NCBI RefSeq assembly: GCF_030068615.1
Contig: NZ_JASJOC010000013.1
Location: forward strand, 1-64,000
Direction of reading: 5' to 3'
DNA length: 64,000 bases
DNA from: Halostagnicola sp. A-GB9-2
GTDB taxonomy: Archaea; Halobacteriota; Halobacteria; Halobacteriales; Natrialbaceae
Shown here: positions 5,198-50,716 of the stretch, piece after piece
Layout: each line of letters opens with the position of its first letter
Numbering within the stretch: the stretch's first letter is position 1
Position numbers and translations under genes: made by a program
The notes under the pieces: generated by a model
Told to the model about the DNA's origin: nothing
What the model saw: the letters and a program-made list of their open reading frames with translations, nothing else
The model's database searches: none

Positions 5198-6454
5198 TTA
5201 CGGTTTGCAGACTCCCTGTTCTCTCGGTGTGAACCGGCCGCTCCCGCGATTGAACAGGAAGACTCCGGGCTGTGCCAACCAGCCGTTACTCATATCTCCC
5301 GTCGGTGGACTCTGAGTTATCTTTCGTCGGATGTTCACCGCACCGTTCACATCTGCGTTCATCGTCGTCTCGCACGACGAACAGACGTACAATCCACGCT
5401 CCACGCGGTTGCTGTCTCGAATCTTCCCACAACACGAACACGTTTTGCTGGTATTTTCCTCATCGACACGATCAACGAGGATCCCGTGTTCCTCGGCCTT
5501 GTATTCAAGGAGACGGGCGAATCGGTCGAACTCCCATCCGTGGAGTTTCTTGTTCCCCGACTGGCCCCAGTTCCGCGAGGCACCGTTCTCGTCTTCGCGG
5601 ATGTCGCTGAGGTCGCCAACCGCGATCTTCTCCACGCCTTCTTCGACGCATCTCTCAACGATGTGTTTCGAGAGCGTGTGAAGGAAGTGGTCTTTGCGTC
5701 GCGAGAGCTTCCGGCGAGCCTTCAGCGCACGCTTCGACGGCCCGTTCTCGCCTTCGGTTTGGTATTCCTCGCGGGTGAAGTAGTGCTTGTCCTCTTTCAG
5801 AACGTTCCCCGGATACAACTCACTCGCCCCATCTTCGTAGTCGATCGCGAGGTAGTTGCTGATACCGAGGTCGATACCAGCCGTGTTGTCGCCGGGTGCA
5901 TCCTCAACAGGAATCTCTTTCTTGCAGACAAGGTGTAGTTCCCACTCGTCTCCGTTCCAGACGGCACGCACTTGCTGGATGTTCTCGACTTCTACGTCGG
6001 GGCGGGTTTCGTACTCCGCGAGTATGAAGTCTGACCGTGTTTCTTTCAGGTTGAAGCCTTTCGAGAGGCGGAGTTGGTCGTGCTTGTCGTCGTGTTTGAT
6101 GCCTTTCTGTTTCCACGTCACAGTGGAGCGTGGGTGTCGATCGCCACGTTTCCGATAGCCTGGTGGGTTGTTGCCGTCATCAGAGTTGTACCAGCCGTTG
6201 AACGCCTCAGCAAGTTCTTCGAGAACTCGCTGACTTGACTGAGAATGAAGGTCACTGTAGCGTTCGTGGTTTTTCAACTCCGACTTTAGCTCGGCTTCGT
6301 CGGGTATCTCACCGTCTTCATCCCACCGTTCTTCGATGTAGTAGCGGCCGACGTTCCACAGTTTCGACGCGGAGAACCCGCACTGGTCGAGATCGGCACG
6401 AACCTGACTGTGGTTCGTGATCCGGGCGACGTAGGTTCGGGTCGTCTCCAGCAT
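5198..6454 (-). CDS. tnpB: TnpB, RNA-guided nuclease of an IS1341-type element
   Basis: A 418-residue TnpB from the ATG at 6454, whose N-terminus (MLETTRTYVARI) aligns with the other copy; the in-frame upstream extension has no family likeness. RuvC-I AGIDLGISN carries Asp195, the zinc finger has CSCC near 339-342 and CSSC near 358-361, and RuvC-III NADVNGAVN carries Asp368. RuvC-II reads IAVGDLSDIREDEN, again with Gly (G280) in place of the canonical Glu. N-terminal and central segments (FSASKLWNVGR, LHSQSSQRVL, VENIQQVRAVW) are shared with the first TnpB, so the two elements are close relatives. The gene looks intact. Confidence 0.93.
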   Translation of the reverse strand: MLETTRTYVARITNHSQVRADLDQCGFSASKLWNVGRYYIEERWDEDGEIPDEAELKSELKNHERYSDLHSQSSQRVLEELAEAFNGWYNSDDGNNPPGYRKRGDRHPRSTVTWKQKGIKHDDKHDQLRLSKGFNLKETRSDFILAEYETRPDVEVENIQQVRAVWNGDEWELHLVCKKEIPVEDAPGDNTAGIDLGISNYLAIDYEDGASELYPGNVLKEDKHYFTREEYQTEGENGPSKRALKARRKLSRRKDHFLHTLSKHIVERCVEEGVEKIAVGDLSDIREDENGASRNWGQSGNKKLHGWEFDRFARLLEYKAEEHGILVDRVDEENTSKTCSCCGKIRDSNRVERGLYVCSSCETTMNADVNGAVNIRRKITQSPPTGDMSNGWLAQPGVFLFNRGSGRFTPREQGVCKP

Positions 6455-6464
6455 CGTACTGTGT

Positions 6465-6496
6465 GCATAACGAGTTATGCAACAGAGTATATTAAA
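6465..6496 (-). promoter_or_regulatory. Promoter of the second tnpB with dyad element
   Basis: TTTAATATAC on the minus strand (6487-6496) is a good archaeal TATA box about 37 bp upstream of the ATG at 6454. GCATAAC-GA-GTTATGC at 6465-6480 is a 7-bp inverted repeat between the TATA box and the expected transcript start. That position is typical of a repressor operator; a 5' RNA hairpin is the alternative. Confidence 0.5.
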
Positions 6497-6664
6497 GACT
6501 GTGTTTGACGTGGAATATCCAGGCGTACCGGAGTCGGTGGAATGAGTCACTGAGTGACGGCGCGTATCCACGCCGTAAACGACGTGGTATTGCGCCTGCT
6601 CAGCGTATAACTGTAAGCAATTGATGAAAGCACTACCATACCCGTCCAATAACTGTGAGACACG

Positions 6665-6671: not shown

Positions 6672-6699
6672 TATTGTGCTGCACTCAAAACGGCATGAT

Positions 6700-9138
6700 A
6701 TGGGGTTGCAGAACGAGGAGGTTACTGGTCAGGAAACGACGTGTGCTATCTCTGATCAGATCGGAGCAAGCACACACTGGAAGACGTACAGTGGACGGAC
6801 TGATGATGGAGAGCCAACTCTTATCAGAGTGTTACAAGGGGAGGTTCCCGATTCAAGTCACGACCGATTCAACGGGCTCGTGAGACAATGGGCAAGCATC
6901 AGTGATCGAGAGTCAGTCCGTGGCGTTATCGACTGGGGGACAGAGATCGAACCGTGGGTCGCTGTCGAGTACGCCTCCTCCGATGGAAAACAGTTCGCAA
7001 GCGGTGGGATGGTCGACACCGCGATAGCGTGTGACGACCGGACGAAAGTCGAGCTCGTTAGCGAGGTCTGTGAAACTATCCAGACTTATAGCCGGTATGG
7101 ATCGACATCGCATCACCTTGCTATCCATCCGGATTGTCTTTTTTTCGGAAACGGACAAGATGGTCCTGTAGCCATCGTCGACGACTGGGGAGTGAGTCGC
7201 CTTGTGAACGAGCCACCGATAACACCATACACGGCTCCCGAACAACTCGAGGACGGCGGACACGCGAAAAAACGCACCGACATCTATCAAGTTGGTGTGC
7301 TTGCCACACACCTTCTAACGGGGACAACCCCGTTTGCCGACGATGCCGACAGCGATGACCCGGAAGCATTAGCGAGTACAATCGAGAACGGAATCGACGA
7401 AACAGTACTTCCGGAGGGGACTGTAGAGCCGATCAGTAAAGCGATGGCCGTTGATCCGGAAGACCGGTACTCTGCCCTGTCACAGTTCCAACGCGACCTG
7501 CTCAATGCTGTTCCAGCATCCACCGATCGGGCAACTGGTTCGCTCATCGCAGTAACGACACCGACCTTGGCAGCCACGAACACCGGCGAAAGACAGGCAG
7601 ATACCACTGGTTCACCAAGCAGCGAGTCAACAACGGCAGTCAATTCACCGACAGAGACAGCCACCACATCGTCACAAACAGACACCGCATCGACACGGAC
7701 GGACACGACAAACGCACGGCCTGATCGAACGGGAACCGGAAACGGTAATTCCAGACGCTCTTTCCTCAAATACGGAGTCGTCGCCGTAGGGGGTGCTGGA
7801 GCCATGTATCTCGGGTTGCCGATACTCACTGGTGACGAGTCACTCCGGAGTGCGTTACCCGGTGGGACAACTGGCTCGGATCCAGCCGCTGGTTCCGGTG
7901 GGGACGTCCGCGTCAACACCGGGTTTCGGTCGTGGCTCGAGCCCCTAGAGAACAACGCAGAGAACGTTGGCATCCCGAGAGAAGCCGATGTACAGATACA
8001 GGAGGGACCTGCAGACCCAGCACACCGAGTCGACGAACTTATCAATCAAGTCGAATCAGACCAGCCACAGCCCGATCTCTTCGTCGTTAATGAGACAGAA
8101 TTAGGGATGCTCATGGAGGCTACGGTGACCGACTCCATGGGCGAGCATTCGATCGACGAGACACTCAGAAATACGCCGCCATTGTACGAGGCCCTGAGTC
8201 AGCATCCAAGTGATGGAGTTCATCATGCGATTCCCTACGGATTCATGCCACTGGTCGTTGCGTATCACAAGCCCCTACTCCGTGAAATGGGGTATGATAA
8301 TGGGGTATTTGAGGCGTGGATGACGGATCCGCCGAGCTGGGAACAGTGGTCCGAAATTTCCGCATTCGCCCGCGAAATGATCGGGACCCCGTTCGGATTC
8401 ATCTGGCCAGGTCAGCCGACCCAGCTTCCAGGGTTCTTTACGTCGGTTCTGGAGGCATTCGGTGGCACATACTATGGAAGCCCCGACGCAGCCACAGGAC
8501 CCATTACCGATCGGCCTGTGACGATCGCCAATCCGCAGGCCGTTGAGGCAACGAACGTCATTCACGACCTCGTCACCGGGGATAACCGCTCGTCACACGC
8601 TATCGAACAATGTACTTCCGACGATATCTTTTCGATGGGGTTCAACCAGGTTTACGAACTATTAATGGGCCAAGAAGCAGTCGCCGCACAGATCCCACTG
8701 AGTCTCGCCCGCATACTGGTCGAAGAATATGGGCCGGATGAGGTCGGCATCATGCCCATGCCGACAGGTACAGCCAGGTCAGCAACAACAGCCTTCGGAT
8801 CGTACGTTGCTATGAATCCGAATACAGAGAATACGGGCGGAGCACTCGAGGTGGCAAGCGCGTTCCGATCACCAGAATTCGCACAGATGATCCTCTCTCA
8901 GGGATATGAGATACCGTTTGGTGAGGATATACAAGCCGACGGTCTCTTTGACTCCTCACTGTACGAACCATATGCAGACACGTTCCAGTTTATTGCCGGA
9001 TCACCAGCGGTTGAACCGGCTGGAAACGCCTGGATCGACGAACGTGACGTAATCGGTGAACAGATGGTCGAAGCAGTCATGGGATTCAGTCCAGAGCCAA
9101 TACTCGAACAGCTCGCCGAGTTCATCGATCATAATTGA
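6700..9138 (+). CDS. Pseudokinase - internal Tat anchor - solute-binding fusion protein
   Basis: An 812-residue protein with three parts. Residues about 25-270 have the Ser/Thr-kinase fold pattern: the activation segment ends YTAPEQL, followed by TDIYQVGVLATHLLTG as in active kinases. The catalytic loop reads HLAIHPDCLFF where HRDLKPxN is expected, so the catalytic Asp is Ala and the Asn is Cys. DFG is DWG, and the VAIK lysine looks like Arg (TLIRVL). This is a predicted pseudokinase. A Thr/Ser-rich linker (about 270-350) leads to SRRSFLK plus a hydrophobic segment (about 351-376), an internal Tat-type signal/anchor. The rest (about 400-812) resembles family 1 ABC sugar-binding proteins. The expected topology is kinase-like domain inside, binding domain outside. 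An in-frame GTG at 6676 is an alternative start. No transporter genes are adjacent, which suggests sensing rather than uptake. Confidence 0.85.
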   Translation: MGLQNEEVTGQETTCAISDQIGASTHWKTYSGRTDDGEPTLIRVLQGEVPDSSHDRFNGLVRQWASISDRESVRGVIDWGTEIEPWVAVEYASSDGKQFASGGMVDTAIACDDRTKVELVSEVCETIQTYSRYGSTSHHLAIHPDCLFFGNGQDGPVAIVDDWGVSRLVNEPPITPYTAPEQLEDGGHAKKRTDIYQVGVLATHLLTGTTPFADDADSDDPEALASTIENGIDETVLPEGTVEPISKAMAVDPEDRYSALSQFQRDLLNAVPASTDRATGSLIAVTTPTLAATNTGERQADTTGSPSSESTTAVNSPTETATTSSQTDTASTRTDTTNARPDRTGTGNGNSRRSFLKYGVVAVGGAGAMYLGLPILTGDESLRSALPGGTTGSDPAAGSGGDVRVNTGFRSWLEPLENNAENVGIPREADVQIQEGPADPAHRVDELINQVESDQPQPDLFVVNETELGMLMEATVTDSMGEHSIDETLRNTPPLYEALSQHPSDGVHHAIPYGFMPLVVAYHKPLLREMGYDNGVFEAWMTDPPSWEQWSEISAFAREMIGTPFGFIWPGQPTQLPGFFTSVLEAFGGTYYGSPDAATGPITDRPVTIANPQAVEATNVIHDLVTGDNRSSHAIEQCTSDDIFSMGFNQVYELLMGQEAVAAQIPLSLARILVEEYGPDEVGIMPMPTGTARSATTAFGSYVAMNPNTENTGGALEVASAFRSPEFAQMILSQGYEIPFGEDIQADGLFDSSLYEPYADTFQFIAGSPAVEPAGNAWIDERDVIGEQMVEAVMGFSPEPILEQLAEFIDHN

Positions 9139-10833: not shown

Positions 10834-11493
10834 TCACTGCGCCTCTTCTGGATTCCGTACTGACATACCAAAAGATTCTATTTCGTCGATATTTCTGGTC
10901 CGAGTCGAATCAATTCTGATACCGACACAAAGCACCTCCTCTGGGTCGAGGCGAACGATTTCTTGTAGCAAATCGTCTCCACTCTGGCTCTGCCCAGCAA
11001 CCGAGTAGGGGAACTGGAAGCCATCGCTGAAGGAGACACGATTTTGTTCGGTTGGGTCAGTTTGATCATACGCCCGAACCCGAATTTCGACCGGAACACC
11101 GCTTAAGTTTTCCTGCCCGACACCCCCGACGTTCGCGATCAAAAACACCGCTTCCTCTTGCTTAGTTTGTGCGAACGTCGTTACTGCCTCGCGGTTTATC
11201 GACTCGAGAGCAATACTATGCAGTAACCCATTTTCATCCCCCTCGATGGCAGTCGAAGCAACGATTTCAACCCCCTCCAGATGAAGGTCCTCAAGGCGAC
11301 CACCGGTGAGGTCAGTGACAGCCTCAACTGCAACTTCGCTCGAGTCATCCGTTGCCTCAATATCGGATACTTGTGTCCAGTTTCCCTCACTGTCATTGGT
11401 CGGATCGCTTCCGAATGCACCGCTTGCAATAAAACCGCTACTTCCAACCGTTAACAGTCCCAGACCAAGCATTATACTTCGACGACGCATCAA
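10834..11493 (-). CDS. Tat-exported DUF1102-like surface protein
   Basis: A 219-residue protein. The start MMRRRSIMLGLGLL gives a Tat-like signal (RRRSIML) and a hydrophobic segment, then SGAFGSDPTND. The mature part is acidic and beta-rich, with no catalytic motif. The layout (Tat signal, S/T-GAF, about 200 residues) matches small haloarchaeal DUF1102-type or camelysin-like surface proteins. It is co-directional with the related gene at 11526-12113 (32 bp apart), so the two probably form an operon. Function unknown. Confidence 0.7.
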   Translation of the reverse strand: MMRRRSIMLGLGLLTVGSSGFIASGAFGSDPTNDSEGNWTQVSDIEATDDSSEVAVEAVTDLTGGRLEDLHLEGVEIVASTAIEGDENGLLHSIALESINREAVTTFAQTKQEEAVFLIANVGGVGQENLSGVPVEIRVRAYDQTDPTEQNRVSFSDGFQFPYSVAGQSQSGDDLLQEIVRLDPEEVLCVGIRIDSTRTRNIDEIESFGMSVRNPEEAQ

Positions 11494-11525
11494 ATTTATT
11501 TGTCCATCAAAACCGGTCTCGTTCG

Positions 11526-12113
11526 TTACTCGTCACCGCCGTCGGTACTCGCGTGAATACTGATGACTGGAACATCCTCTGGGCTCCCCTCATATTCGTA
11601 TGGACCGCCGTACTCGTTATCGGCTTCCTCGCGCGTATCAACTTCAAGTGTTATATTGACAGGATCGTCACCTACTTCAATCAATGTGGTATCCGGGTCG
11701 GTCTCGGTTGAGTCCCTATCGGTAATATCGTCATCACCAACGATGAACCCAATCCCATCCTTTTCACCCGTATCGAACCAAATCTCAGCGTCCTGTGAGC
11801 CATTATTACCGACTTTGAGCAGATCGTGAAATCCAGTTAATGCATCATCGTTAAGCCCAGCATCATTATCCTCCCCCTCGTCTTCCGTACCGATATTGAT
11901 CGCGATCAGTCCATCCTCGTCATCTACATATTCGTTAGCACTGTCACCGTCACCAGGCTGTAACTCGAGGAGGGCAGCGGCGTCGTCAGCGACTTCGACA
12001 TCAAAATTGCGGTCGGCTTGAACAGTATCGAATGCACCGGACGCTCCAACAACTCCAATTCCTCCTGCGATTGCTCCGAATCCAATTAGGGTGTTCCGTC
12101 GTGTTAGTTTCAT
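11526..12113 (-). CDS. Tat-exported DUF1102 domain protein
   Basis: A 195-residue protein starting at the ATG at 12113 (MKLTRRNTLIGFG), which places a TRRNTL Tat signal at the N-terminus. SGAFDTVQADRNFDVEVADD is the conserved DUF1102 opening and matches the segment TGAFDLLSADRAFDI of the solenoid protein at 3412-4716. The remainder is very acidic, with short Asp/Glu-rich loops, as expected for a secreted halophilic protein. A two-gene unit with the downstream DUF1102-like gene is likely. Its role is unknown; related proteins are presumed surface or fibre-forming. Confidence 0.8.
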   Translation of the reverse strand: MKLTRRNTLIGFGAIAGGIGVVGASGAFDTVQADRNFDVEVADDAAALLELQPGDGDSANEYVDDEDGLIAINIGTEDEGEDNDAGLNDDALTGFHDLLKVGNNGSQDAEIWFDTGEKDGIGFIVGDDDITDRDSTETDPDTTLIEVGDDPVNITLEVDTREEADNEYGGPYEYEGSPEDVPVISIHASTDGGDE

Positions 12114-13009: not shown

Positions 13010-13882
13010 TCACTTCGATTGGAGTGTGAAGAAAAAAGTCGCCCCCTCTCCAGGTTCGGATTCGACCCAAATGTCTCCGCCGTGGCGCTCGATGATTCGT
13101 TGACAGATGGCAAGACCGATCCCGGTTCCAGCGTGTTCTTCCTGCGTGTGGAGTCGCTGGAATACATCGAAGATATCCGCTTGGTTCTTACGCGGGATTC
13201 CAATCCCCTCATCTCGAACTGAGACGATCCACTTCATGCCATCTCGATCGGCCGAGATGTGAACCTGTGGCGGCTCATCCTCACTATATTCGATTGCGTT
13301 GCTCACGGTATTTTGGAAGACTTGGCGCAACTGTCGCTCGTCGGCGATGACCTCGGGTAACGAATCGACATCGATGGTAGCACCCGTTTCAGAAATTTGC
13401 ACTTCTAGGTTCTTCTGTACATCACGGACAATCTCCTCGAGATCGACCTGTTCGAATGGCTCGCCCTGTGTCTCGATGCGCGAATACTCGAGTAATGCAT
13501 CGATCATCTCTTTCATCCGTTCAGCGCCGTCGACGGCGAACTCGATAAACTCCTCAGCATCATCGTCGAGATCGTCCGTATACCGACGGTCAAGGAGATT
13601 GAGATAACTCGTGATCATTCGTAGCGGCTCCTGTAAGTCGTGCGAGGCTGCGTAGGCGAACTGCTCGAGTCGCTCGTTGGACTCCTCGAGTTGCGCTCGG
13701 AGTTCCTGTAGCTCCTGATTCCGTTGGTTGAGTTCGAGCGCTCGTGTTTTGGCTCGTGCATCACGCGTACCGACTCCAAAACCGGCAACGCTGCTGAGCG
13801 CTGATAGAATGAGAATACTTCTGTCTGGGTTATTGAGAGTGTCCGCGGGTTGTAGGTGGTAGAACGTAAGGATGCCAAACAT
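13010..13882 (-). pseudogene. Sensor histidine kinase, N-terminally truncated
   Basis: The remaining 290 codons encode the end of a membrane region (about residues 23-38), a coiled coil (RALELNQRNQELQELRAQLE, about 48-70), a HisKA domain with phospho-acceptor His81 in FAYAASHDLQEPLRM, and a full HATPase: N-box QNTVSNAIEY, G1 DEGIGIP and G2 GTGIGLAIC, ending with the usual GATFFFTLQ. Further upstream the frame meets a stop and then the ISH3 inverted repeat at about 13910, so the sensor part is gone. The cytoplasmic kinase core could still be made from the ATG at 13882, but the protein is probably non-functional as a sensor. Confidence 0.85.
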
Positions 13883-27564: not shown

Positions 27565-27835
27565 TTACGAAAAGACGAATCGCAATTCGATGACGTTTGC
27601 GATCTCTTCGACCGACTCGCTTAGTTCCGTCCGCCGATCCTCGTTGGTGAACCGGTTTACGGGACCCGAAACGCTAATCGCACCGATTACGTCGTCATCG
27701 ATGATGACGGGCGCTGAGATGCAATAGAGGCCGTGGATCGTCTCCTGTCGGTCGAACGCCAGTCCGCGTTCCTCAATCCAATCGAGTTCCTCGAAAAGTT
27801 CCCCCCGGGAGGTAATCGTGTGTTCCGTTAGTCCT
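27565..27835 (-). pseudogene. IclR-family regulator, C-terminal remnant
   Basis: A 90-codon open stretch matches the effector-binding end of IclR regulators: RGLTEHTITSRGELFEELDW, ERGLAFDRQETIHGLYCIS, APVIIDDDVIGAISVSGPVN and RTELSESVEEIANVIE before the stop. The DNA-binding HTH and most of the sensor domain are missing. Its upstream end overlaps by 8 bp the stop region of the CARDB surface protein gene. IclR proteins often control catabolic genes; it may have regulated the lost part of the neighbouring island. Confidence 0.8.
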
Positions 27836-30119
27836 CTGCTTCACCGGAGGCATCCGCACGACGTTTCAATAGATAGGTTACACCGCCAAGACTGGCAACA
27901 GTACCGATAATTCCAGGCCCAGGAACCTCGTCAGTCTCGAGTTCAATGACAACATCGCTATCATCGTCATCGCTGTCACCAGAGTCCGGTACTTCGTCAT
28001 CGCCACCTTCCTCGTTGCCCCCAGAATCGTCTCCCGATGTCCCATCATCAGTTCCGTCTCCGTTATTCGTTCCACCACTGGACTCATCGTCGTCATCATC
28101 ATCACCGACTTCCTCATCAACGACAGTCACCTCCCCAGTGTAGCTATCGTCGCCAGTTTCAAGGCTAAACTCATGCTCACCAGGAGAATCAGCCGTCACG
28201 ACGTATTCATGTTCCCAGTAATTGCCGGGATCCAGGTCAATCTCAGTGGACTCGACATCGTCCCCTGCAAAGGTGAAATCGATCGTCGCAGACGTTGCAA
28301 CATCGCCTTGATTCTCGATAACATACGGAATAACGATCGAATCACCGAGAGTTACCGCGTGACTCGGATCATCGATTCCAATGAGAGCGATCTCCGCTGA
28401 GTCGCCCTCAACAGAGATAACTCCACTTTCCGCATCATTCGCAGATTCGATAGTGAACTCATGCTCTCCGCGTGCTTCTACCGGTCCGACTGGAATGGAA
28501 TACATGGCTAGATCGCCGCCATCAAGACCAACATTGAGGGTCTCAATGGTATCCCCCTCGAGTTCCACTGTAACCGTCTGGGAGACACTCACATCTCCCG
28601 CATTTCGCACGTCAAAATCAATGTCAACAGTGTCGTGGGGCTGAATTGTTGGCTCTTCTGGAGTCACGGATTCGATACGAAGTTCGGGCTCCTCTTCACC
28701 GTCATCTCCCCCCTCTTCTTCACCGTCATCCTCCTCTTCCTCTTCTTCCGTTTCGTTATATGGTTCCTCAAGGAGTTCTTCACTCGGGTCTGTAATCGCT
28801 TGCACCTCATCAACCAGAAGTTCCCGATCGTGATCATTACCGCCAACACCAGCCCGAAATTCGAAGTCAAATTCGCTAATCGAATCCGATAGCTGCCATT
28901 CGCTGGGTTCGCTGGTCCCAAACTCCCATACTTTGGCGGATACTGTCCCCCCATCTAAGTACAATCGAAAGACAGCCCAAGTATTCGCAAAGGCGTTGTC
29001 AATCGTTTCGGCGCCTGGAGAATCAAGGGACCCGGACGCGAAGTAAATCGCGTCTCGAGACGTATTGATCAATAAGTGTCGCTCATCGTCATCCCCGTTT
29101 AATCGAAACCGCTGCTGAAATGCAGATTCAGTTACCCTGTAGATACCACGGAATTCGACGGTGTCATGCGTGTTGAAGACACCTGCACACTCCCAGTCCG
29201 CTCCGGAACGTGTCGCATCATCAAGGCGCATCGAGCGATCACCAACGACACCATCCGAAACGACTTCAACATTTCCGCTTGTATCCCAGCAGTCTAACCC
29301 GTCCTCGAAATCATCGAACGAGTCACTTCCGTCGTCTCCCTCATCGTCGTCATCGTCGTCATCGTGGTCATCAGAGATGTCCGTCGTTGCCCGAAACTCA
29401 TCCCATGTGAAATAAATCGAATCATCGTAGGCAGATGGACCGACACCACCCCAGTTCCGGGAGCGCATCTCAACAGTGTGAATACTCGTCTCCTGCCCAT
29501 CATCGGGCAGGAGCTCTGTATACTCGTCCCCATCGATAGTCACCGTGAACGTTTCATCATCAGCCCTGATCGCCACTTCATAGATGGTTCCCGATTCAAA
29601 TGAGGTAAGCACCTTGTCCTCAGCTCCAACCCACTTGATGTCTCGATCCTCATGGTCAAACCGAACATACCCGTTTGACTCCCCATCTTCATCATTTACT
29701 CTGAATCGGTTGTTGTTCCAATCCGACGCATCAAGGTCGCCAGTTAAGCGAAATCGCGCCGAGACTTCCTGTGCGAGTTCTCCATCGAGTTTATCGGAGA
29801 GATCTGGGCTCTGGACGTAAATGCCATCGTTCAAGCACTCAATCTGTGGTGAATACTCACCAGTGATTGGCACATCATCAATAATAGCGAACTCGTATTC
29901 GTTACTATCGAGCCCGTATCTGTACGTGTTTCCATTATCAACGACGACCTTCTCCCAGCCCTGTTTTGTTCCATCGTCCCAGTTATACTCGACTGCCACT
30001 CCCGTCGTAGTCAACGTTGGATTCGAACGAGTTGCACCCACAGACGATGTTGCCACGGTACCAACAAGTCCGCCACCAAGGGTTTGTAACAGGTGGCGTC
30101 GCTCAAGTGTCCCGGTCAT
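27828..30119 (-). CDS. Large secreted CARDB/LamG-like surface protein with C-terminal anchor
   Basis: A 763-residue protein from the ATG at 30119 (MTGTLERRHLLQTLGGGLVG), which gives a Tat-like ERRHLLQ signal. Two jelly-roll domains of the LamG or DUF1080 type follow (about 40-240, starting YNWDDGTKQGWEKV, and about 260-465), separated by a poly-Asp linker. Two CARDB-like domains then occupy about 490-675 (IDFDVRNAGDVSVSQTVTV; IPYVIENQGDVATSATIDF). An Asp/Gly/Ser linker leads to PGPGIIGTVASLGGVTYLL plus KRR, a tripartite C-terminal tail like the PGF-CTERM signals processed by archaeosortase. A surface-attached glycan-binding or structural protein is likely. Confidence 0.82.
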   Translation of the reverse strand: MTGTLERRHLLQTLGGGLVGTVATSSVGATRSNPTLTTTGVAVEYNWDDGTKQGWEKVVVDNGNTYRYGLDSNEYEFAIIDDVPITGEYSPQIECLNDGIYVQSPDLSDKLDGELAQEVSARFRLTGDLDASDWNNNRFRVNDEDGESNGYVRFDHEDRDIKWVGAEDKVLTSFESGTIYEVAIRADDETFTVTIDGDEYTELLPDDGQETSIHTVEMRSRNWGGVGPSAYDDSIYFTWDEFRATTDISDDHDDDDDDDEGDDGSDSFDDFEDGLDCWDTSGNVEVVSDGVVGDRSMRLDDATRSGADWECAGVFNTHDTVEFRGIYRVTESAFQQRFRLNGDDDERHLLINTSRDAIYFASGSLDSPGAETIDNAFANTWAVFRLYLDGGTVSAKVWEFGTSEPSEWQLSDSISEFDFEFRAGVGGNDHDRELLVDEVQAITDPSEELLEEPYNETEEEEEEDDGEEEGGDDGEEEPELRIESVTPEEPTIQPHDTVDIDFDVRNAGDVSVSQTVTVELEGDTIETLNVGLDGGDLAMYSIPVGPVEARGEHEFTIESANDAESGVISVEGDSAEIALIGIDDPSHAVTLGDSIVIPYVIENQGDVATSATIDFTFAGDDVESTEIDLDPGNYWEHEYVVTADSPGEHEFSLETGDDSYTGEVTVVDEEVGDDDDDDESSGGTNNGDGTDDGTSGDDSGGNEEGGDDEVPDSGDSDDDDSDVVIELETDEVPGPGIIGTVASLGGVTYLLKRRADASGEAED

Positions 30120-30566
30120 ACGCAATACAGAGCATAGAGCAAAATATTGGTTCTGGTTCGGGCAGATATTTGGTCTTCTGAGAGTGACTACCAAACAGTC
30201 CCCCTTTCGGTTCTTGTACGCTCATCTGAACAAAGATGATCGGCTGTTGAGTGGCTATAGAGGCGGCCACCAAACAGACTTGCAACCAACAATCCGAGCA
30301 CGGAGCCACACATGTCCGTACGTGGAGAGACGAACCCACACGATTTGTACCGGTCGGGACAAGAACGCATAATGCCAAACGCTAAATTTGGATTATTTAT
30401 GACTAGGGCCGACCCAGGCATTACGCTCGTACACATGTAAGCGATTCAAATGCGACATTTGGCGTCTGGTTCTGAGAAAGAGGCCCCCAAAAGTACAATG
30501 AGAGGCTGATAACTCGCAGAGAGTGTTGAATTACCGGGTGAAACGCAGGCAACACTGACACAAAAT
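30120..30566. other. Intergenic region with a copy of the dispersed repeat
   Basis: No gene is supported. Positions 30371-30465 contain a repeat similar in order and sequence to 822-938, with a TACA-NN-TGTA dyad at 30430-30439 and flanking ATTTGG words. The remainder shows nothing recognisable. Confidence 0.45.
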
Positions 30567-31619: not shown

Positions 31620-31623
31620 TCAC
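31557..31623 (+). repeat. Solitary TnpB-type element right end
   Basis: GTCGGGC-GTT-GCCCGAC (31557-31573) and GGGAGC-TTT-GCTCCC (31581-31595) hairpins precede GGAGGATGTCAC (31612-31623), the terminal motif seen after both tnpB genes. No tnpB frame remains upstream. The minus-strand stop codon of the neighbouring gene (31620-31622) lies inside the terminal motif. Confidence 0.55.
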
Positions 31624-32828
31624 GTCTCCTCGACACCCTCAATCGTGATGGAGATTTCCTCTTCGATTGCAGGATCGTCAGCTGATACCGGGTCATCACC
31701 CACAGCGATTAGCAGTTCGGCATCACCATCCGTTAGCGGACCAACCTCAACCGAGTCGAGTCCGCCATCGATATCAGTTTCAGTCTCCGCAATGACTTCG
31801 CCGTCTCTGGTTACAGCAACATATGCGCGTTCCTGCCCATCAGCGTCTCCAGAAATCGAGAATCCGTCGGCATCATTGACAGTGATCGTTGCGTGGTCGA
31901 CGAATTCACCGCCGTCTGTCAGCAGTTGCGTCGATTCTCCAGTGACAGCAACACTCTCGAGTTCGGGGTCTGGCTCCTCACCATCTACAATCACGATCGG
32001 ATCCAACGAGTCCGTCTCGCTCACCCCATACAAAGCAGCAGCATTGACAAGGGCCACTGCAAGCACCCCGAGAACGAGTACGCCGGCGATTCCGACGGTG
32101 GCCATGAAAACTACTGACCTCGACTGAGACCGCGTCGAACCACTGTTCGAGTCCGTCGTTGCTCGCGGACGAGATGATCGGTCCGTTCCCTCTTGACTCC
32201 CTCCACCAGCCGATCGCTGTTCACGATAGTCATCGAACAGCGATTCTGTCTCTCCGATCGGAGACAACGGTGCATCACCACCGAGTTCGATCGTCAGATC
32301 ACAGTCGGAAAGCTCAGTGATCCGTGCATTTTCTGCAATCGCCAGCGTATCAGCATCGCCGTGAGTATACTCATACAATAACGCAAGCCCTGCACTGGCA
32401 TCTCGAGTTCGGATCTGAAGCGACTCCCCCCGTCCGACTAACGAGCTTATCATTCGATGATCCTCACGCGATCCTGGAAGGTCTCCCTTCCCGCCATCGA
32501 GCTTCGAGAATACCTCGACGTCGTCGCTCGTCGTCTGCAGTGTCATCTCGAACTCGTCCTCGATACGCTCGCGAAGGTCGTCCTTGAAGCGGGTGAAGAT
32601 TTGATTGAGCGAATCCGTTTCGTAGACGGCGTAATACTGCTCGGCTCGCCCTCCTTTCGTCTCACGCGCACGGAAGAAGACAACAAGTTCGTTTTGTGAA
32701 CCAGTGTCTAAAAAGACACGGACACCCCCGAAGAAGAACTTCTCTATTCGATCGCTCACTTCGGTCGGATCTCTCCCGCTGCTTCGGTATCTGTTCCCCT
32801 GGGAGTCGTAAATTGTGAGTTTTGCCAT
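31620..32828 (-). CDS. Single-pass membrane protein paired with the membrane GTPase
   Basis: A 402-residue protein. Residues 1-225 form a cytoplasmic-looking mixed domain (MAKLTIYDSQGNRYRSSGRD; a GRAEQYYAVYETDSL strand region), followed by a Ser/Arg-rich linker, a transmembrane helix at about 241-266 (VVFMATVGIAGVLVLGVLAV) and an acidic extracellular beta domain to the end. No signal peptide is present. Its stop lies in a TnpB-type right-end motif, so the original C-terminus may have been altered. It sits 3 nt after the GTPase gene, so the two are very probably co-translated and work together. I do not recognise the family. Confidence 0.75.
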   Translation of the reverse strand: MAKLTIYDSQGNRYRSSGRDPTEVSDRIEKFFFGGVRVFLDTGSQNELVVFFRARETKGGRAEQYYAVYETDSLNQIFTRFKDDLRERIEDEFEMTLQTTSDDVEVFSKLDGGKGDLPGSREDHRMISSLVGRGESLQIRTRDASAGLALLYEYTHGDADTLAIAENARITELSDCDLTIELGGDAPLSPIGETESLFDDYREQRSAGGGSQEGTDRSSRPRATTDSNSGSTRSQSRSVVFMATVGIAGVLVLGVLAVALVNAAALYGVSETDSLDPIVIVDGEEPDPELESVAVTGESTQLLTDGGEFVDHATITVNDADGFSISGDADGQERAYVAVTRDGEVIAETETDIDGGLDSVEVGPLTDGDAELLIAVGDDPVSADDPAIEEEISITIEGVEET

Positions 32829-32831
32829 CTG

Positions 32832-34277
32832 TTATCCTCCAAGTCGTTGTAGGAGACGACCGAATCCGACCGTGATAACCGAGCCGCGGTCGTCACGAGC
32901 TGGCACTCGCTCGTCTTCCTCGTTGAGTGTCGTTTCGTAGTAGACCGGGTGAACCTCCAATTCGGGTGTCTGCCGAAGGAGGCTACTGAACTGCTGGCTC
33001 TGACTGAGTTCGTCCTCGACAAACTGCTTGAAGTCGTCAAACGAATCTTGAGGGTCTTGTTCGGTTGCTTCCCAGTACTGGTCGGCGAGGATATCAGCTT
33101 TCGTGGGGACGAGGACAACCCCCGTATCCTCGGCCACCTCGAGAATCGAGAAGTACTCGGCGAGGCCGAGCCCCTCGTTGTTCACGAACCGCTCGAGGTC
33201 GATCAGCAGGATCAACTTGTTCGCGTCGCGAATACCCTCTGTTAGTGCCTCGAGTTCCGCATCCGGATTGGAGATGTTTCCCTCCAACGCGTCGGGAATG
33301 CGGCTCAAGTGCTCGCCCGCGTAATCCACACTCGAGACGGTCACGTTCTTCGGGAACAACGTTCCCTTCACGAACTTGAACTCGAGATGCTGGAGTTCGC
33401 TTCGACCCGTTGCCTCGACGATCCAGTCCGTCGCGTCTCGGTCGAGGTTTTCGACCAGTTCCATCAAATCCTGACTCGGGTTCAACGCCTCTCGTTGACT
33501 CTGGCGTTTGTCTTCGTCACGCTCGAGAGCTTTGAGATAGGCACCAATCAGGAGCAGGCTCTTTCCCGAAGCTGGCGGTCCGAGGACGAAGAAGCTATCG
33601 TTGGATTCGTACTGAGTGAAACGTCGTGCCGTGCCAACGGCAACGCCGCTCGCGAGGACGTTCACCGCTAGTCCGTCAGCCCGAAGCGAGAGTCCCGAGG
33701 ACTCCGGTGAAAGGATTGTGACACCCTGTTCAGAGACTTCGATGAACTCAGGATAGACGATATGTGCCTCGATCAGTGAGACGAACACGACGCCGACCAA
33801 GAGCGCATAAATGCTCCAGGTCGCCCTTCGGTACTCGATTGGACCCATTTGCTTGAGCTCGAGTGCTTTCCGCCCACCGCCGAGTAGCAATCCGAGCACG
33901 AGTCCCGGAAGGATTGCGATCGCATCCTCGGGCTGGCTTACGTCCGGGACGAACGTTCCACTCGAGGCCAGGAAAAAGAGCGTGACGCCGAGCCCGATCC
34001 AGATCAACAACGCCTGCCAGCGTTTTTTTGGATCGAGCGTCATCAGAGCGAGCAAGCCGATTACGAACCCGAGGAACAGGAAGTTGATCACTCCCTGTCC
34101 AATCCCAACGAACTCTCGGAGTTCCATGACCGACCGAAGGATGTGGCTTTCTGTCCACGCGGTCGCGTACAGTTGGGCCAGTACCGGCGTCACCGCAACG
34201 ACAATACCGAGGTACACGAGTAGCGCTATCTTCTCTCCGTGCTCTCGAAGCCCCGTTAGCACCGCTTGCCTCACCAT
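32832..34277 (-). CDS. Membrane-anchored P-loop GTPase
   Basis: A 481-residue protein. The N-terminal 180 residues contain about five membrane helices (about 17-40, 63-81, 88-105, 120-134, 153-170). The C-terminal half is a GTPase-type P-loop domain: G1 GPPASGKS (233-240), G3 DYAG (VSSVDYAGEHLSRI, about 318-321), and G4 TKAD in VVLVPTKADIL. A hydrophobic LILLIDLERF strand precedes G4. The G1-G3-G4 order identifies a TRAFAC-like GTPase rather than an ABC or AAA enzyme. It could be related to double-GTPase or SRPRB-like proteins, but I cannot tell which. A signalling, membrane-remodelling or conflict role with its partner is possible. Confidence 0.75.
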   Translation of the reverse strand: MVRQAVLTGLREHGEKIALLVYLGIVVAVTPVLAQLYATAWTESHILRSVMELREFVGIGQGVINFLFLGFVIGLLALMTLDPKKRWQALLIWIGLGVTLFFLASSGTFVPDVSQPEDAIAILPGLVLGLLLGGGRKALELKQMGPIEYRRATWSIYALLVGVVFVSLIEAHIVYPEFIEVSEQGVTILSPESSGLSLRADGLAVNVLASGVAVGTARRFTQYESNDSFFVLGPPASGKSLLLIGAYLKALERDEDKRQSQREALNPSQDLMELVENLDRDATDWIVEATGRSELQHLEFKFVKGTLFPKNVTVSSVDYAGEHLSRIPDALEGNISNPDAELEALTEGIRDANKLILLIDLERFVNNEGLGLAEYFSILEVAEDTGVVLVPTKADILADQYWEATEQDPQDSFDDFKQFVEDELSQSQQFSSLLRQTPELEVHPVYYETTLNEEDERVPARDDRGSVITVGFGRLLQRLGG

Positions 34278-34960: not shown

Positions 34961-36235
34961 ATGTTCGAACGAATCACAGACGAAGAAGAACGCGGTCAGG
35001 TGGGTATCGGTACGCTCATCGTGTTCATCGCGATGGTACTTGTTGCAGCGATTGCAGCAGGGGTACTGATCAACACCGCCGGACTGCTTCAGTCACAGGC
35101 CGAAGCAACGGGTCAAGAAAGTACAGCACAGGTGTCGAATGTTGTCGAAATTGAGTCCGCAACTGGGCAAGTAGTTGATGACGGCAATCCACTCGAGGAT
35201 GTTGACCTCGTGCTTGAAGATGAAATCGAGGGTACTGCTGCCGACCACACTAGCATTGAATACATCTCCGTAGAAACTGACAACGTATTTGTAGAAAGTC
35301 AAAGCGGAGATGTTGGTGAGCTTGAAGAAGAGCTAGAGGGCGTTGACCTATCCAGTGATGCTGATGTGGAATTTGAAGTTGAAACCGATGAATCGGGTAC
35401 CGAAGATCCTCTTGGTACTGGTGACGACTACACCATTGAAGTTGATGAGAGCTACATCCAAGAGGATGGAACGGTAAAACTATTTGTCCTCGAAGATCCT
35501 GATACAGCCGATAATCTCTTAGTTGAGAGTGTTCTCGACGAGGGCTACATCAATGGTGTTCAGTTCTACGACATGACTGGCGAAATCGATGAGTTAGAAA
35601 TTACCGATCCTATTGGTGTAGGCAACGTGGAGCCACACGCGGAGGCTGACTTTAGTGGCGAAGATCTCTCTGGTGGTGACAACGAAATCGAAGTGGCGGT
35701 AGAGACCACGGATAATGAGGAACTTGGCGACGCAACAGGATCACTTGAATTAACTGCACTCGCCTCTGCAGAAGGTGACGGAGCTGCCATTCAAGTCTTT
35801 GATGATGGAAGTGGAGACCTCGTTCTTGACATCGATGCAGACGAACCCACCGGTCCAGGTACCGGTGACTACATCGACGAAGTCTCGATGATGGTCTCAC
35901 TCGGACCAGGTGCAGATGCAGTTGACCTTGGGGCAGCAACCTTCGAATACGTCGGTGAAGATACTGAGCGAGGTCAAGCAGAGGATCTCATCAACCTTGA
36001 TGTCGAAAGCCTCGAGGGAGAAGATCTGATCAACAGTGACGATGCTGATGCAATCCTCACATCCGATGATCGCTACAACATTGAGTTAGATCTCAACGGA
36101 CCTGGTAATGAAGACTTCTCGCCAATCGAAGCAGGTGGCTCCGCTGAGTTCACTATCGTTACCGCCGACAGCTCCCAAACTGTTGAAGTGCTGATGGCAC
36201 CGTCGACGCTTACTGAAGACGCAATTAGTCTCTAA
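34961..36235 (+). CDS. Archaellin (flagellin), long form
   Basis: A 424-residue archaellin. The N-terminus [20 protein letters not shown] has a class III signal peptide cut by prepilin peptidase PibD before QVGIGT, then the conserved hydrophobic assembly helix ([20 protein letters not shown]). It continues with [14 protein letters not shown] as in all haloarchaeal archaellins. The variable middle is enlarged and very acidic (about residues 70-290). The C-terminal [21 protein letters not shown] and the final VEVLMAP strand are conserved archaellin features. Most archaellins are near 200 residues, so this protein carries a large surface-exposed insertion. It builds the archaellum filament with the following gene. 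Confidence 0.93.
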
Positions 36236-36270
36236 TTCGGTTTAGAGACCTATAATAACTTCATATTTTG

Positions 36271-36825
36271 ATGATCGCATCGGCCCCTGACGAAGAGAGA
36301 CGTGCACAAGTAGGCATTGGGACACTCATCCTGTTCGTAGCGATGGTGCTCATCGCCGTCCTCGCAGCGGGTGTCCTGATGAACACTGCTGGCGTCCTTC
36401 AGTCACAGGCCGAAGCAACCGGGCAAGAAAGCACTGCAGAGATTTCGAACACCGTCGACGTCTACACCGCAGTCGGCGACGTGAACGAAGATACCGAGAT
36501 CGAGGCGATCGATATCACAGTTGGGCTGGGTGCTGGCTCGAATCCGATTGACCTCGACAATATCGTGATCGACTATCTCGGGCCAGGTGGACATACATTC
36601 ATCACTGACGTTCCCGTCAACGTCGACGGGACCGACAGCTCGGTCCTCGAGACAGGGGGCGACCGAGCGACGATCACGGCAGAACTCGAAGGAGAAGAAG
36701 AAGTCGAACCGCTCGAGCAAGGCGATGCTGCAGTCATAACCATCATTACAAACGACGGCGCACAGATTACCGTGCAGTTGACCACCCCGACGATTCTCGA
36801 AGCCGAACAACCAGTCCGGCTGTAA
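36271..36825 (+). CDS. Archaellin (flagellin), short form
   Basis: A 184-residue archaellin, 35 bp after the first. I prefer the ATG at 36271 over the TTG at 36268. The signal [20 protein letters not shown] is cut before QVGIGT. The assembly helix and [13 protein letters not shown] segment almost repeat the first archaellin. The middle is short, then [20 protein letters not shown] and a C-terminal ITVQLTTP strand follow. The gene pair probably arose by duplication, with different middle domains. No other archaellum genes lie nearby. Confidence 0.93.
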
Positions 36826-47460: not shown

Positions 47461-48699
47461 TCAAAGGTGCTCGAGTGGCGGTGTTCGACCGACACGCCAG
47501 CCAGCCACTGCTGCAGCGATGGTGCCAATACAGACTGCGATCGTAATTCCCCAGAAGTAGATTTGGGGTGATGTCTGTACGAGCCCTTCAAAGCCGACGA
47601 CAAACGCCGCAAGTTCGTTCAGGAATGTTACCCCTAGCGGGGTTAGGGCAAGCCCCAATAGCCCACCGAGAATTCCAATCATCAATCCCTGTCCAACGAC
47701 TGTCGCGACAAGAATCACTGAAGAGATTCCCTGTGCCTTGAGTGCAGCAAACTCCCGCCGTTGTTGATACACGACAAGCGCAAGTAAATTCAGCGTCAGT
47801 GCGCCACCAGAAACGGCAGCAAGCACGACAAGTGCGCCACCAGCCGCAAGCACAAGAACCTGCTCTTGGAGCACCGCCTCGAGTTGTTCATCATCCGATC
47901 GGATGTCGTATTCAGGGAACGAGTCTTGAAGATCCGATTGGACAGCCTCCTGTGAGGCACCATCTTCAAGAGTGATCGTGATGAACGTTGCAGGTTCATT
48001 TTCGGTGGTCGAAGTAACCTGATGAAGCTCACTTAACGGCATCGTCACCGTCGGCGTTCCCAACATTTGTTCGAACGTCGGGGAGATTCCGACGACGGTG
48101 AACTCGTTGTCTCGCGCCATACTCAATGACCCGCCAACATGAACAGTATCTCCAATATCAATATCAAGTGCTCGAGCGGTCTCTTCATCAATGAGAATCT
48201 CGTGGCTCATCTCGCCCTCGTACGTCCCGTTTGCATAATGCGGATCGCCACCGAATTGCTCACCCTCTGTCACACTTACTGCTGGACCGCCCCCACGAAC
48301 GCCACTCCCGATAAATGTCTCAAAATCGCCAGTTTCGTCAGCAGCCACATACACAGTTTCAAAGGCAAGGGGGATCGCATGTCGGACTTCCTCATGGGTT
48401 TCCATTTCCTCAGAGACTGATCGTGAATCGTATAGCGAGTTTTCGAATCCACCACCGCCCCGTGTCGTTATTTGGGTCTCGCCACCCGTTACCCAGAGAT
48501 CCCGATCTGCAGAATCAAACTGTTGTTCGCCGATGTCGATAACGCCGATACCAGCTCCAGCAAGTAACGTTGTAGCGAGCACAGCGAGTGCAACACCAAT
48601 GATTGCCAGCGACAGTCGGAGCTTATGATGACGTAACTGAGAGAAGGCCAGTCCACCTGAAACTCGCAATCGCGTCACCAACCCACCAATTAGACTCAT
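47461..48699 (-). CDS. FtsX/MacB-type ABC transporter permease
   Basis: A 412-residue permease from the ATG at 48699, overlapping the upstream permease by 4 nt. One N-terminal helix (LSLAIIGVALAVLATTLLAG, about 30-50), a large extracellular MacB-like domain (about 55-275), then three helices, ending RVGRTPPLEHL, a typical FtsX-family end. The pattern (1+3 helices) is that of MacB/LolCE transporters, which use ATP for mechanotransmission rather than transport across the membrane. It forms a heterodimer with the neighbouring permease, driven by the LolD-like ATPase. Confidence 0.9.
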   Translation of the reverse strand: MSLIGGLVTRLRVSGGLAFSQLRHHKLRLSLAIIGVALAVLATTLLAGAGIGVIDIGEQQFDSADRDLWVTGGETQITTRGGGGFENSLYDSRSVSEEMETHEEVRHAIPLAFETVYVAADETGDFETFIGSGVRGGGPAVSVTEGEQFGGDPHYANGTYEGEMSHEILIDEETARALDIDIGDTVHVGGSLSMARDNEFTVVGISPTFEQMLGTPTVTMPLSELHQVTSTTENEPATFITITLEDGASQEAVQSDLQDSFPEYDIRSDDEQLEAVLQEQVLVLAAGGALVVLAAVSGGALTLNLLALVVYQQRREFAALKAQGISSVILVATVVGQGLMIGILGGLLGLALTPLGVTFLNELAAFVVGFEGLVQTSPQIYFWGITIAVCIGTIAAAVAGWRVGRTPPLEHL

Positions 48700-49916
48700 G
48701 TTGGAACACCTCCAGTAATCCGACGAGCAATGAACAGAAGAGCTGGCAATGACAGCACCCCAATAATCAGCGCAACGACGACTCCATACACGATGAACAA
48801 CGGGTGGGCAAAGGCGATTGGTTCCGTTGTGAGTACCCTGACTGCAATAGTGTTTACAAGCCAAATGCTGGCAAGTCCACTAAGACCACCAATAATGCCT
48901 CCCAGAACAGTCGTGACAATGGTCTGAACACCCACTAATTGGATTTGACTTCGAGACGAGATTCCGATTGCAGACATCGTCGCTAGCTGGCGTCGATCCG
49001 CGACAATTTCGAGGCCAGTCGTTGTGACAACAAATAGCGTCCCGATAGAAATTGCGACGATAAATGCGGTCCCTGACAGCGCTAGTGGAAGATCTGCATC
49101 AACCGTTTCACTCGCTGTCATCTCCCCACGAGATAATACTTCGGACTGTGGATAAATAGCCTCGAGATCGTCTTGAACAGCTGGCGAATCGGTTTTGACG
49201 ACAAACTGATCAGCCTGATCATCCGTGTCTGCGCCGGTTAGGGTCTGCAGTTCGCTCAGTTGAACAACGGCTGTTGGAACGTTTCCAATCGAATCACCCG
49301 ATGTCTCGGCTGTTTCTGTGACAGCGAAGGACTCATTTCCCGCAACCGATACTGAGTCATCAACTGAGACCTCGAGTAAATTAGCTGCACCTTCAGATAG
49401 TACGACTTCGCCGGTCCAGTCGCCGTCGTATGTGCCAGCATCGTAGTACGGGTCCCCAGGAGTTAACTGACTTCCATTGACACCGGCGACATCATCAATC
49501 CCCGGATTGTTAATAACGCCGACTACCAAGACGTACTCATCTTCACCATCCGCTTCAATGCGGAGAACGTCAGATAATACCGGTGTGGTGGCGTCGACGC
49601 CGTCTGTTTGTTCAATTTGGGTTGCCCCGTCGTGGACAGAACCAAATCGAGGACCATCTGTCGCGATCATCGGCGACCGATCACCTCCTTGCTCGGGCGT
49701 GATCCAGTAATCGATATCGTCATCGTAGACTGTGGTTCCAGTCGCTAATCCAATCCCAATCCCGGTGACGACGACCAACAATGTAATCGCGACAGCAACC
49801 CCAAGGATGCTAAATAGCACTCGTTGACGTGAGGTTCGTGTCGCTCGTGATAACGTACGTCGAATACCGATTGACGCTATTCCACCCCACTTAACGAAGA
49901 GACTCCGAAGAGTCAT
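48696..49916 (-). CDS. FtsX/MacB-type ABC transporter permease
   Basis: A 406-residue permease. The N-terminal helix (VLFSILGVAVAITLLVVVTG, about 33-55) is followed by a MacB-like extracellular domain and three C-terminal helices (TAFIVAISIGTLFVVTTTGL; TIVTTVLGGIIGGLSGLASI; LFIVYGVVVALIIGVLSLPA). Both ends overlap their neighbours by 4 nt (ATGA), so the three genes form one tightly coupled operon. It pairs with the second permease. Confidence 0.9.
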   Translation of the reverse strand: MTLRSLFVKWGGIASIGIRRTLSRATRTSRQRVLFSILGVAVAITLLVVVTGIGIGLATGTTVYDDDIDYWITPEQGGDRSPMIATDGPRFGSVHDGATQIEQTDGVDATTPVLSDVLRIEADGEDEYVLVVGVINNPGIDDVAGVNGSQLTPGDPYYDAGTYDGDWTGEVVLSEGAANLLEVSVDDSVSVAGNESFAVTETAETSGDSIGNVPTAVVQLSELQTLTGADTDDQADQFVVKTDSPAVQDDLEAIYPQSEVLSRGEMTASETVDADLPLALSGTAFIVAISIGTLFVVTTTGLEIVADRRQLATMSAIGISSRSQIQLVGVQTIVTTVLGGIIGGLSGLASIWLVNTIAVRVLTTEPIAFAHPLFIVYGVVVALIIGVLSLPALLFIARRITGGVPT

Positions 49917-50716
49917 TCTCCTTGAGTGTGTATCGAAGTTGATTCGAATTCTGTCTCTTGATCGGAGATTGTCCCGTCTTGAAGCCGAACAACTCGATCT
50001 GCGATACGAAGCGTCGGGCGATCATGTGAAGCGAGGATAACAGCCCGGTCCTCAGCGACTCGTCTGAACTCGTTCAGGACTCGTTTTCCGGTTTCTGAAT
50101 CAAGTTCGCCTGTTGGTTCATCAGCAACGACAAGTTTCGGATCTGTGACGAGTGCACGTGCGATAGCGACTCGCTGTTGTTCGCCCCCACTCAATTCACC
50201 TGGTCGATGGGTAATTCGGTCTTCAAGTCCAACACGCTCAAGCAACGCTGTAGCACGCTGTCGGCGTTCAGATTTTGAAACACCAAGCTCAACGAGTGGC
50301 AACGCGACATTTGCTCGCGCTGACAGTGACTTTAGCAAATGGAAGTGCTGAAAGATAACACCAACATGCTCCAATCTGTGACGTGTTCGCTCTCGTCGCG
50401 AAAGCGAATTCAGAGCTGTCTCTTGGAACGTCACTGTTCCTTCCGTCGGAAGTTCAAGACCAGCTAAGATATGAAGCAACGTCGATTTTCCACTCCCACT
50501 GGGGCCAGCAAGACCAACAATCTCACCGTTTGCTACTGAAATCGAGACCTCATCGAGGGCACGAACTGCCGGTGGATCAGAGCGGCCGAGAAGTCGCCCA
50601 ATCCGTCCCGGTTCAGAACCGCGTTTGTATTCCTTTTGCAGGTTTCTCCCGACGATCATCGGAGTTGTATCCGTTGACTCACCAGTAGAAGAAGCGGGAG
50701 AGGGCTGTACGGTCAT
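49913..50716 (-). CDS. LolD/MacB-type ABC transporter ATPase
   Basis: A 267-residue ATPase with Walker A GPSGSGKST, Q-loop VIFQHFHLL, signature LSGGEQQRVAIARAL and Walker B LVVADEPTGELD; the ELDSETG wording is typical of MacB/LolD. An extra N-terminal segment (about 30 residues, Ser/Thr-rich) and a polar C-terminal tail are present. It powers the two FtsX-like permeases encoded downstream. The complex may export lipoproteins, peptides or antimicrobials; substrate unknown. Confidence 0.93.
   Translation of the reverse strand: MTVQPSPASSTGESTDTTPMIVGRNLQKEYKRGSEPGRIGRLLGRSDPPAVRALDEVSISVANGEIVGLAGPSGSGKSTLLHILAGLELPTEGTVTFQETALNSLSRRERTRHRLEHVGVIFQHFHLLKSLSARANVALPLVELGVSKSERRQRATALLERVGLEDRITHRPGELSGGEQQRVAIARALVTDPKLVVADEPTGELDSETGKRVLNEFRRVAEDRAVILASHDRPTLRIADRVVRLQDGTISDQETEFESTSIHTQGE

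Follow-up and report, generated by a model that had tools for sequence, protein, structure and literature searches.

Results

A membrane GTPase gene and its partner gene

The window, a stretch of 64,000 nucleotides from a Halostagnicola contig, carries on its minus strand a gene pair spanning positions 31620-34277 (Table 1). The first-pass annotation had placed there a motif-bearing GTPase ORF fused to "about five" helices, followed 3 nt later by a single-pass membrane ORF, and the ORF list and the sequence bear out the exact span and the motifs; the gap consists of nucleotides 32829-32831. Both frames are real genes, because homologues occur in many genera and dN lies well below dS.

Table 1. 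Features of the gene pair (positions in the window, residues in the respective protein).
Feature	Position	Strand	Basis
Membrane GTPase, 481 aa	32832..34277	-	ORF; profile, alignment, model; relatives in 35/293 genomes of the order
GTPase membrane part, ~6 predicted TM helices, helices 5 and 6 joined by a short outer beta hairpin	33612..34277	-	hydropathy (25 rows), AlphaFold2 model, conservation
G1 / P-loop GPPASGKS, residues 233-240	33558..33581	-	sequence; G233 and SGKS invariant in 25 rows
G3 DYAG, residues 318-321, then invariant Glu322	33315..33326	-	sequence; DYAGE invariant in 25 rows
G4 TKAD, residues 392-395	33093..33104	-	sequence; T392, K393 and D395 invariant in 25 rows
Partner, single-pass membrane protein, 402 aa	31620..32828	-	ORF; conserved 3' of the GTPase
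Partner inner (predicted cytoplasmic) domain, residues 1-208, conserved part of the family	32205..32828	-	alignment A5; pLDDT mostly > 90
Partner TM helix, residues 243-261	32046..32102	-	hydropathy; model puts the helix at 248-266
Partner outer domain (predicted), residues 262-402, acidic, fast-evolving	31623..32045	-	model, fold comparison; divergence

The GTPase contains the TRAFAC/Ras-like motifs G1 (GxxxxGK[S/T]), G3 (DxxG) and G4 ([NT]KxD) in that order. Across the 25 members of alignment A6 there is no variation at G233, S237, G238, K239, S240, D318 to E322, T392, K393 and D395, and the motifs are therefore not chance occurrences; a protein with this set would be expected to hydrolyze GTP. 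The chain divides into an N-terminal membrane part (residues ~1-222) and a GTPase domain (~223-481). Hydropathy of the 25 members and an AlphaFold2 model place six helices at ~17-35, 63-81, 89-107, 113-131, 156-174 and 203-221, so that the earlier figure of about five was slightly low; strict hydropathy applied to the window protein alone gave four. The same two sources point to a C-terminal G domain on the cytoplasmic side, and a conserved DPKKR-type loop between helices 2 and 3 (residues 82-86), itself predicted to be cytoplasmic, fits this placement.

The AlphaFold2 model of the GTPase is of low confidence, with a mean pLDDT of 67.9 and values below 50 for residues 250-320. All 50 fold-comparison rows shown for this low-confidence model cover the G domain (residues ~211-481), and their titles, which are mostly Rag, Ras-like, Arf, YcjX and translation GTPases or complexes that hold one, point to a P-loop GTPase fold. 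The best alignment of the G domain, subject to the quality of the model, was to a Rag-type (Asgard Rag-like) GTPase (Z 11.8, rmsd 3.1, 158 residues), while YcjX aligned over a longer stretch (Z 10.1, 211 residues); the aligned sequences share 13-18% identity. Foldseek searches with the model gave no match at E <= 0.001. A search of solved structures with the GTPase sequence profile returned weak P-loop proteins only, and an NCBIfam match to Hda, at 16.9 bits against a cut-off of 194.8, was discarded as a P-loop match.

A single TM segment was found by hydropathy in 23/23 rows of the partner alignment (A7). The window partner has 30 Lys and Arg residues before this segment and 2 after it, and a topology with the N-terminus inside and the C-terminus outside is therefore likely. 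The putative inner domain is conserved across the family, whereas the outer domain is variable in both length and sequence; the model suggests, with low confidence, an Ig/FN3-like beta sandwich for the latter. Fold-comparison rows for the partner cover the outer domain (303-400) and barely touch the inner domain, so no fold was assigned to the inner domain, and Foldseek with the partner model gave no match at E <= 0.001. Predicted secondary-structure elements of the inner domain follow the order strand, short strand, helix, three strands, helix, which we take to be that of longin domains. The eighth Foldseek match of this domain was a chain of the lysosomal folliculin complex, a match that is not significant (E 0.055, probability 0.28); the folliculin complex regulates Rag GTPases. 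Comparison of the partner profile with solved structures yielded ABC-transporter matches (best E 1.6e-4 over 53 positions), which were judged to be due to chance.

Pfam and NCBIfam gave no family above cut-off for either protein, and searches of PADLOC and PHROGs were likewise without a convincing match (in PADLOC, one weak match for the partner, E 0.032, and none for the GTPase).

Relatives of the pair

A one-sequence search detected the GTPase in 35/293 genomes of the order; three of these (G148, G210, G239), with weak partial matches at E > 1e-4, were dropped from later counts. The GTPase profile matched 41/392 genomes of the phylum, many of the matches outside the order being short and weak, and the initial description of such proteins as rare in archaea was thus a fair one. 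A scan of a genome collection yielded 28 named loci. A search of viral contigs found no relatives, and there is thus no sign of a viral origin.

Forty-one loci were compared: the window, L031, L052-L062 and L069-L096. Earlier fetches (L032-L051) were left out of this count because many duplicate the named loci. The partner lies 3' of the GTPase in 39/41 loci (HMM E <= 1e-4) and is marginal in one more (L057, HMM E 0.04). In L055 it was undetected by the HMM; an unmatched 411-aa ORF occupies the same position, and its start resembles the family by eye. The first-pass reading as a TRAFAC/Ras-like membrane GTPase with a dedicated partner is supported, and the two are conserved together. Within the order the partner profile matched 28/293 genomes, among them one (G252) with a partner-like protein and no GTPase found on the 20-kb stretch. 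At L129 8725-11568 (-) a partner-like protein of 947 aa that lacks a P-loop is encoded as an orphan, no GTPase having been found on its 20-kb stretch.

Relatives were also compared at ten loci from outside the order (L117-L126), where the GTPases are clearly homologous to those of haloarchaea (hhalign E 4.8e-18). The partner was recognized by HMM in three of these loci (L117-L119), and in L120, L121 and L123-L125 it was accepted as a homologue on its position and a profile comparison; methanogen-like and haloarchaeal partners align with an hhalign E-value of 4.6e-5 at a probability of only 68.6%. In L126 the partner is not recognizable. In the methanogen-like L122 the partner is broken into short ORFs (11279-11941, +), while FtsZl1 and the GTPase are open. 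The partner, at first assigned to no family, belongs to an archaea-wide partner family. Four loci (L056, L060, L061, L128) carry two GTPase paralogues flanking or beside one FtsZl1 gene, which suggests that GTPases are paired in part of the family.

FtsZl1 is the usual third gene and is missing here

FtsZl1 lies on the same stretch in 32/41 loci, normally directly upstream of the GTPase, and it abuts the GTPase in 10/10 of the loci from outside the order. The two-gene module of the first-pass annotation is accordingly not the natural unit, since most relatives add FtsZl1 as a third gene. FtsZl1 proteins are ~1,050-1,180 aa long. A representative upstream neighbour matched Tubulin_2 (PF13809) at E 7.2e-12, above the Pfam cut-off, and carries a GGGTGSG loop; Tubulin_2 proteins are described in PMC9871819 as a sparse outgroup. 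FtsZl1 is arranged differently, beside a second GTPase paralogue, in L056 and L060, and is split or cut by a contig end in L082, L089 and L094.

Across the order, FtsZl1 was found in 26/293 genomes, 25 of which are on the one-sequence GTPase list. The 26th (G203) has GTPase-family genes on both sides of FtsZl1, as detected by profile, and FtsZl1 was thus never seen without the GTPase. The GTPase occurs without FtsZl1 in 7/293 genomes (G000, G180, G225, G029, G266, G264, G211). A Fisher test on the resulting table (26/0/7/260) gave p 4e-31, a value that is only indicative because the genomes are related.

The window genome, which is 99.97% complete, contains no FtsZl1; its three sub-cut-off matches fall in ORFs about as long as ordinary FtsZ/CetZ (382, 394 and 432 aa). 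Nine GTPase-positive genomes with no nearby FtsZl1 were searched in full with a 14-member FtsZl1 profile, and no full-length match was obtained; eight had short matches (ORFs of 361-477 aa), and one (G029, 89% complete) had none. The four FtsZl1-less loci described below were not seen to share any other third gene in its place, the L031 stretch ending ~336 bases after the partner.

The FtsZl1 gene set has been described by Makarova and Koonin (2010; Biol Direct 5:33; PMC2875224), who report FtsZl1 beside kinases in Halorhabdus utahensis, the type locus being Huta_2050-2056. According to the same paper, FtsZl1 is in other cases accompanied by vWA proteins and by a diverged GTPase, which is membrane-associated in archaea, unlike in bacteria, and a role in membrane remodelling and vesicle biogenesis was predicted. 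The window encodes a diverged, membrane-bound GTPase of this description, and an FtsZl1 gene is lacking from its operon, from the stretch and from the genome. The window copy is an FtsZl1-less variant of the predicted FtsZl1-associated system. Within the literature searched, which excludes most subscription journals, no experimental study of the FtsZl1-GTPase-partner system was recognized from titles and the opening lines of abstracts.

Probable loss of FtsZl1 and selection on the remaining pair

In a maximum-likelihood tree of the 41 GTPases, whose root serves for drawing only, the window sequence groups with those of Halovivax sp. KZCA124 (L069), Natronoglomus mannanivorans (L070) and genome G180 (L031) with 100/100 support. 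All four members lack FtsZl1. Their sister group consists of three Natrialbaceae with FtsZl1, the seven rows grouping together at 100/97, and the stem branch of the four-member clade is long (0.53). FtsZl1 presence changes four times on the tree, at least three of the changes falling on well-supported branches. The simplest reading is that FtsZl1 was lost at the base of the four-member clade, with other losses elsewhere; alternatively, the pair may have been acquired by this clade without FtsZl1.

Both genes are under purifying selection in the FtsZl1-less clade. By a simple Nei-Gojobori count between L069 and L070, the GTPase has a dN/dS of ~0.09 and the partner one of ~0.35 (inner domain ~0.29, outer domain ~0.42); in most of the other pairs the synonymous sites are close to saturated. 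At 118 GTPase sites a residue is conserved in >= 90% of 26 FtsZl1-bearing relatives, and 94 of these sites are unchanged in all four FtsZl1-less members. Six positions (138, 213, 264, 327, 442 and 460) are changed in all four, and these are possible FtsZl1-related sites.

Genes around the pair

Two archaellin genes (34961-36235 and 36268-36825, +; Arch_flagellin E 1.6e-27 and 7.6e-28) lie divergently from the GTPase gene in the window, and an archaellin-like ORF was seen by eye upstream of FtsZl1 in L117 (14304-15146). When 74 stretches were scanned with a strict archaellin motif, the window alone gave a match, and the scan missed both the second archaellin of the window and the L117 ORF; because of these two missed cases, a link between archaellins and the pair may still exist. 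Downstream of the pair, a large acidic surface-type protein with weak carbohydrate-binding matches is encoded at 27828-30194 (-), and its C-terminal tail resembles a sorting signal. An 820-aa ORF 22 kb from the pair (6676-9138, +) matches a profile built from FtsZl1-adjacent kinases (E 7.8e-78). Two related ORFs at 1425-2705 and 5198-6649 resemble TnpB-type transposon proteins.

Window genes at 13010-13882, 47461-50716 and 60434-62546, which lie 13-28 kb from the pair, have 41-79% identity to neighbours of the pair in Natronoglomus L070; these are presumably a MoxR-type ATPase and ABC transporter parts. Because several distant neighbour genes are common to the window and L070, the region looks stable more than recently imported. 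Promoter and terminator scans were of the sigma-70 type and are not informative for an archaeon.

At a further locus (L127, 3129-19850), FtsZl1 and the GTPase share one stretch with HSP70 (E 6.9e-118), a partner-like ORF and an ORF that resembles DnaJ by eye, a gene set that recalls bacterial tubulin/HSP70 DO-GTPase systems.

Discussion

The pair at this locus is real and conserved, and it is part of a predicted but uncharacterised archaeal system. Our starting points are the two adjacent genes and their motifs, their co-conservation, their linkage to FtsZl1 in relatives, the absence of FtsZl1 here and purifying selection on what is left. On balance we lean towards the view that the pair makes up the switch half of an archaeal membrane system that includes FtsZl1 (Tubulin_2), functioning here without a dedicated FtsZl1. 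The first protein would be a Ras/Rag-like GTPase held in the membrane by ~6 helices with its G domain in the cytoplasm, where the conserved inner domain of the partner, of ~210 residues, would bind the G domain directly and regulate it; the variable, Ig-like outer domain would detect something at the cell surface or keep it in place there. In most relatives an FtsZl1 polymer would shape or organise the membrane under the direction of the GTP cycle, FtsZl1 being a usual but optional effector. In the lineage of the window FtsZl1 would have been lost, or would never have come along, and the pair kept. A pair kept in this way would need a function that does not depend on an FtsZl1 of its own, the simplest being that of a membrane switch with other partners as its targets. 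Membrane remodelling, which was among the roles first imagined for the pair, coincides with what has been predicted in print for the FtsZl1 gene set, and it has the standing of that prediction.

FtsZl1 may instead be only one of several outputs. The two proteins could form a receptor-type signalling pair, in which a signal at the surface is picked up by the outer domain of the partner and passed on by the GTPase to soluble effectors, with remodelling not central. We regard this as somewhat unlikely, even though it would suit the greater constancy of the GTPase-partner pair relative to FtsZl1, the contrast between a conserved inner and a variable outer domain, and the presence of kinase-like ORFs in 21/73 fetched stretches (duplicates included), nearly all of them FtsZl1-bearing; what it lacks is a conserved alternative effector gene near the four FtsZl1-less loci, of which L031 is seen only to ~336 bases past the partner. 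A related proposal, which we rate as unlikely, is a receptor-GTPase switch native to archaea and more general than its tubulin, in which a membrane-bound Rag-like GTPase is gated directly by the inner domain of the partner, a single-pass receptor whose Ig-like outer domain varies, and FtsZl1 is an interchangeable output, discarded several times. If true, prokaryotes would have a counterpart to the Rag switches that longin domains regulate.

A conflict or immunity system resembling the bacterial DO-GTPase systems, with the GTPase and a sensor partner triggering effectors on infection, would account for the patchy distribution of the GTPase, for the weak resemblance to DO-GTPase2 in 18/28 members (best 3.1e-5), for the long alignment with YcjX (Z 10.1, 211 residues) and for the HSP70 beside one relative (L127). 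Yet the window GTPase scores 11.8 bits against the 27 required for DO-GTPase2, neither GAP1-M nor GAP1-N2 turned up at the partner in G000 or G596, and the neighbours in common with L070 speak for a stably resident region more than for a mobile island. No clear defence family emerged either, PADLOC matches being weak, scattered and present in <= 3/25 relatives (with a 2023 library, in which absence excludes little). We consider such a system quite improbable, and the anti-phage role imagined at first finds no support here: PADLOC gave no usable match, viral contigs contained no relative, and no phage family was clearly matched. It is very improbable that the pair is a decaying remnant, on its way out after the loss of FtsZl1 and doing little. 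The absence of FtsZl1 and the long stem branch (0.53) of the four-member clade would agree with decay, but the frames are open in four genomes, all G motifs are intact and the GTPase evolves at a dN/dS of ~0.09.

On the reading that we favor, that of a membrane switch retained without FtsZl1, the locus is a natural dissection that reveals which two parts would be the core and that the presumed filament-forming part is dispensable. Halophilic archaea with and without FtsZl1 exist, several of them cultured, which makes the roles of the pair and of the filament separately testable.

The predicted G-domain fold of the GTPase resembles that of Rag/Gtr and YcjX proteins, a shared fold that shows no shared role, and to our knowledge a six-helix membrane part belongs to neither. 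YcjX has been cited in print beside the DO-GTPase family. In the DO-GTPase systems outlined by Kaur et al. (2020; eLife 9:e52696), DO-GTPases occur with a downstream GAP1 partner and FN3 proteins, and some systems include tubulin and HSP70, which are lost in others. The parallels in organisation are a TRAFAC GTPase with Glu after DxxG, a dedicated downstream partner, an FN3/Ig-like component (here a tentative prediction) and the occurrence of tubulin and HSP70 in some systems, the tubulin being lost in others. By our own reading, the invariant Glu322 after DYAG may correspond to the Walker B Glu of DO-GTPases. Unlike the DO-GTPase systems as outlined there, the GTPase carries a six-helix membrane part and no effector genes were seen at the locus. 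The window GTPase misses the Pfam cut-off for DO-GTPase2 (PF19993, 11.8 bits vs 27), with matches in 18/28 members at E up to 10; GAP1-M (PF20014) and GAP1-N2 (PF20013) gave no match at the partner in G000 or G596, and no GAP1 family was found among 17 partners. Despite the parallel organisation, we therefore do not file the pair under DO-GTPase systems.

Unlike the FtsZl1 system as published, the window copy consists of the GTPase and partner only, with no adjacent or genomic FtsZl1. In common with it, as far as its published description goes (Makarova and Koonin, 2010), the pair has a diverged, membrane-associated GTPase with Walker motifs and TxKD, and in its relatives there is a coupling to FtsZl1 and to protein kinases. 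Since 2010 such systems have been known as predicted machines for membrane remodelling, and the window adds a pair that persists without FtsZl1.
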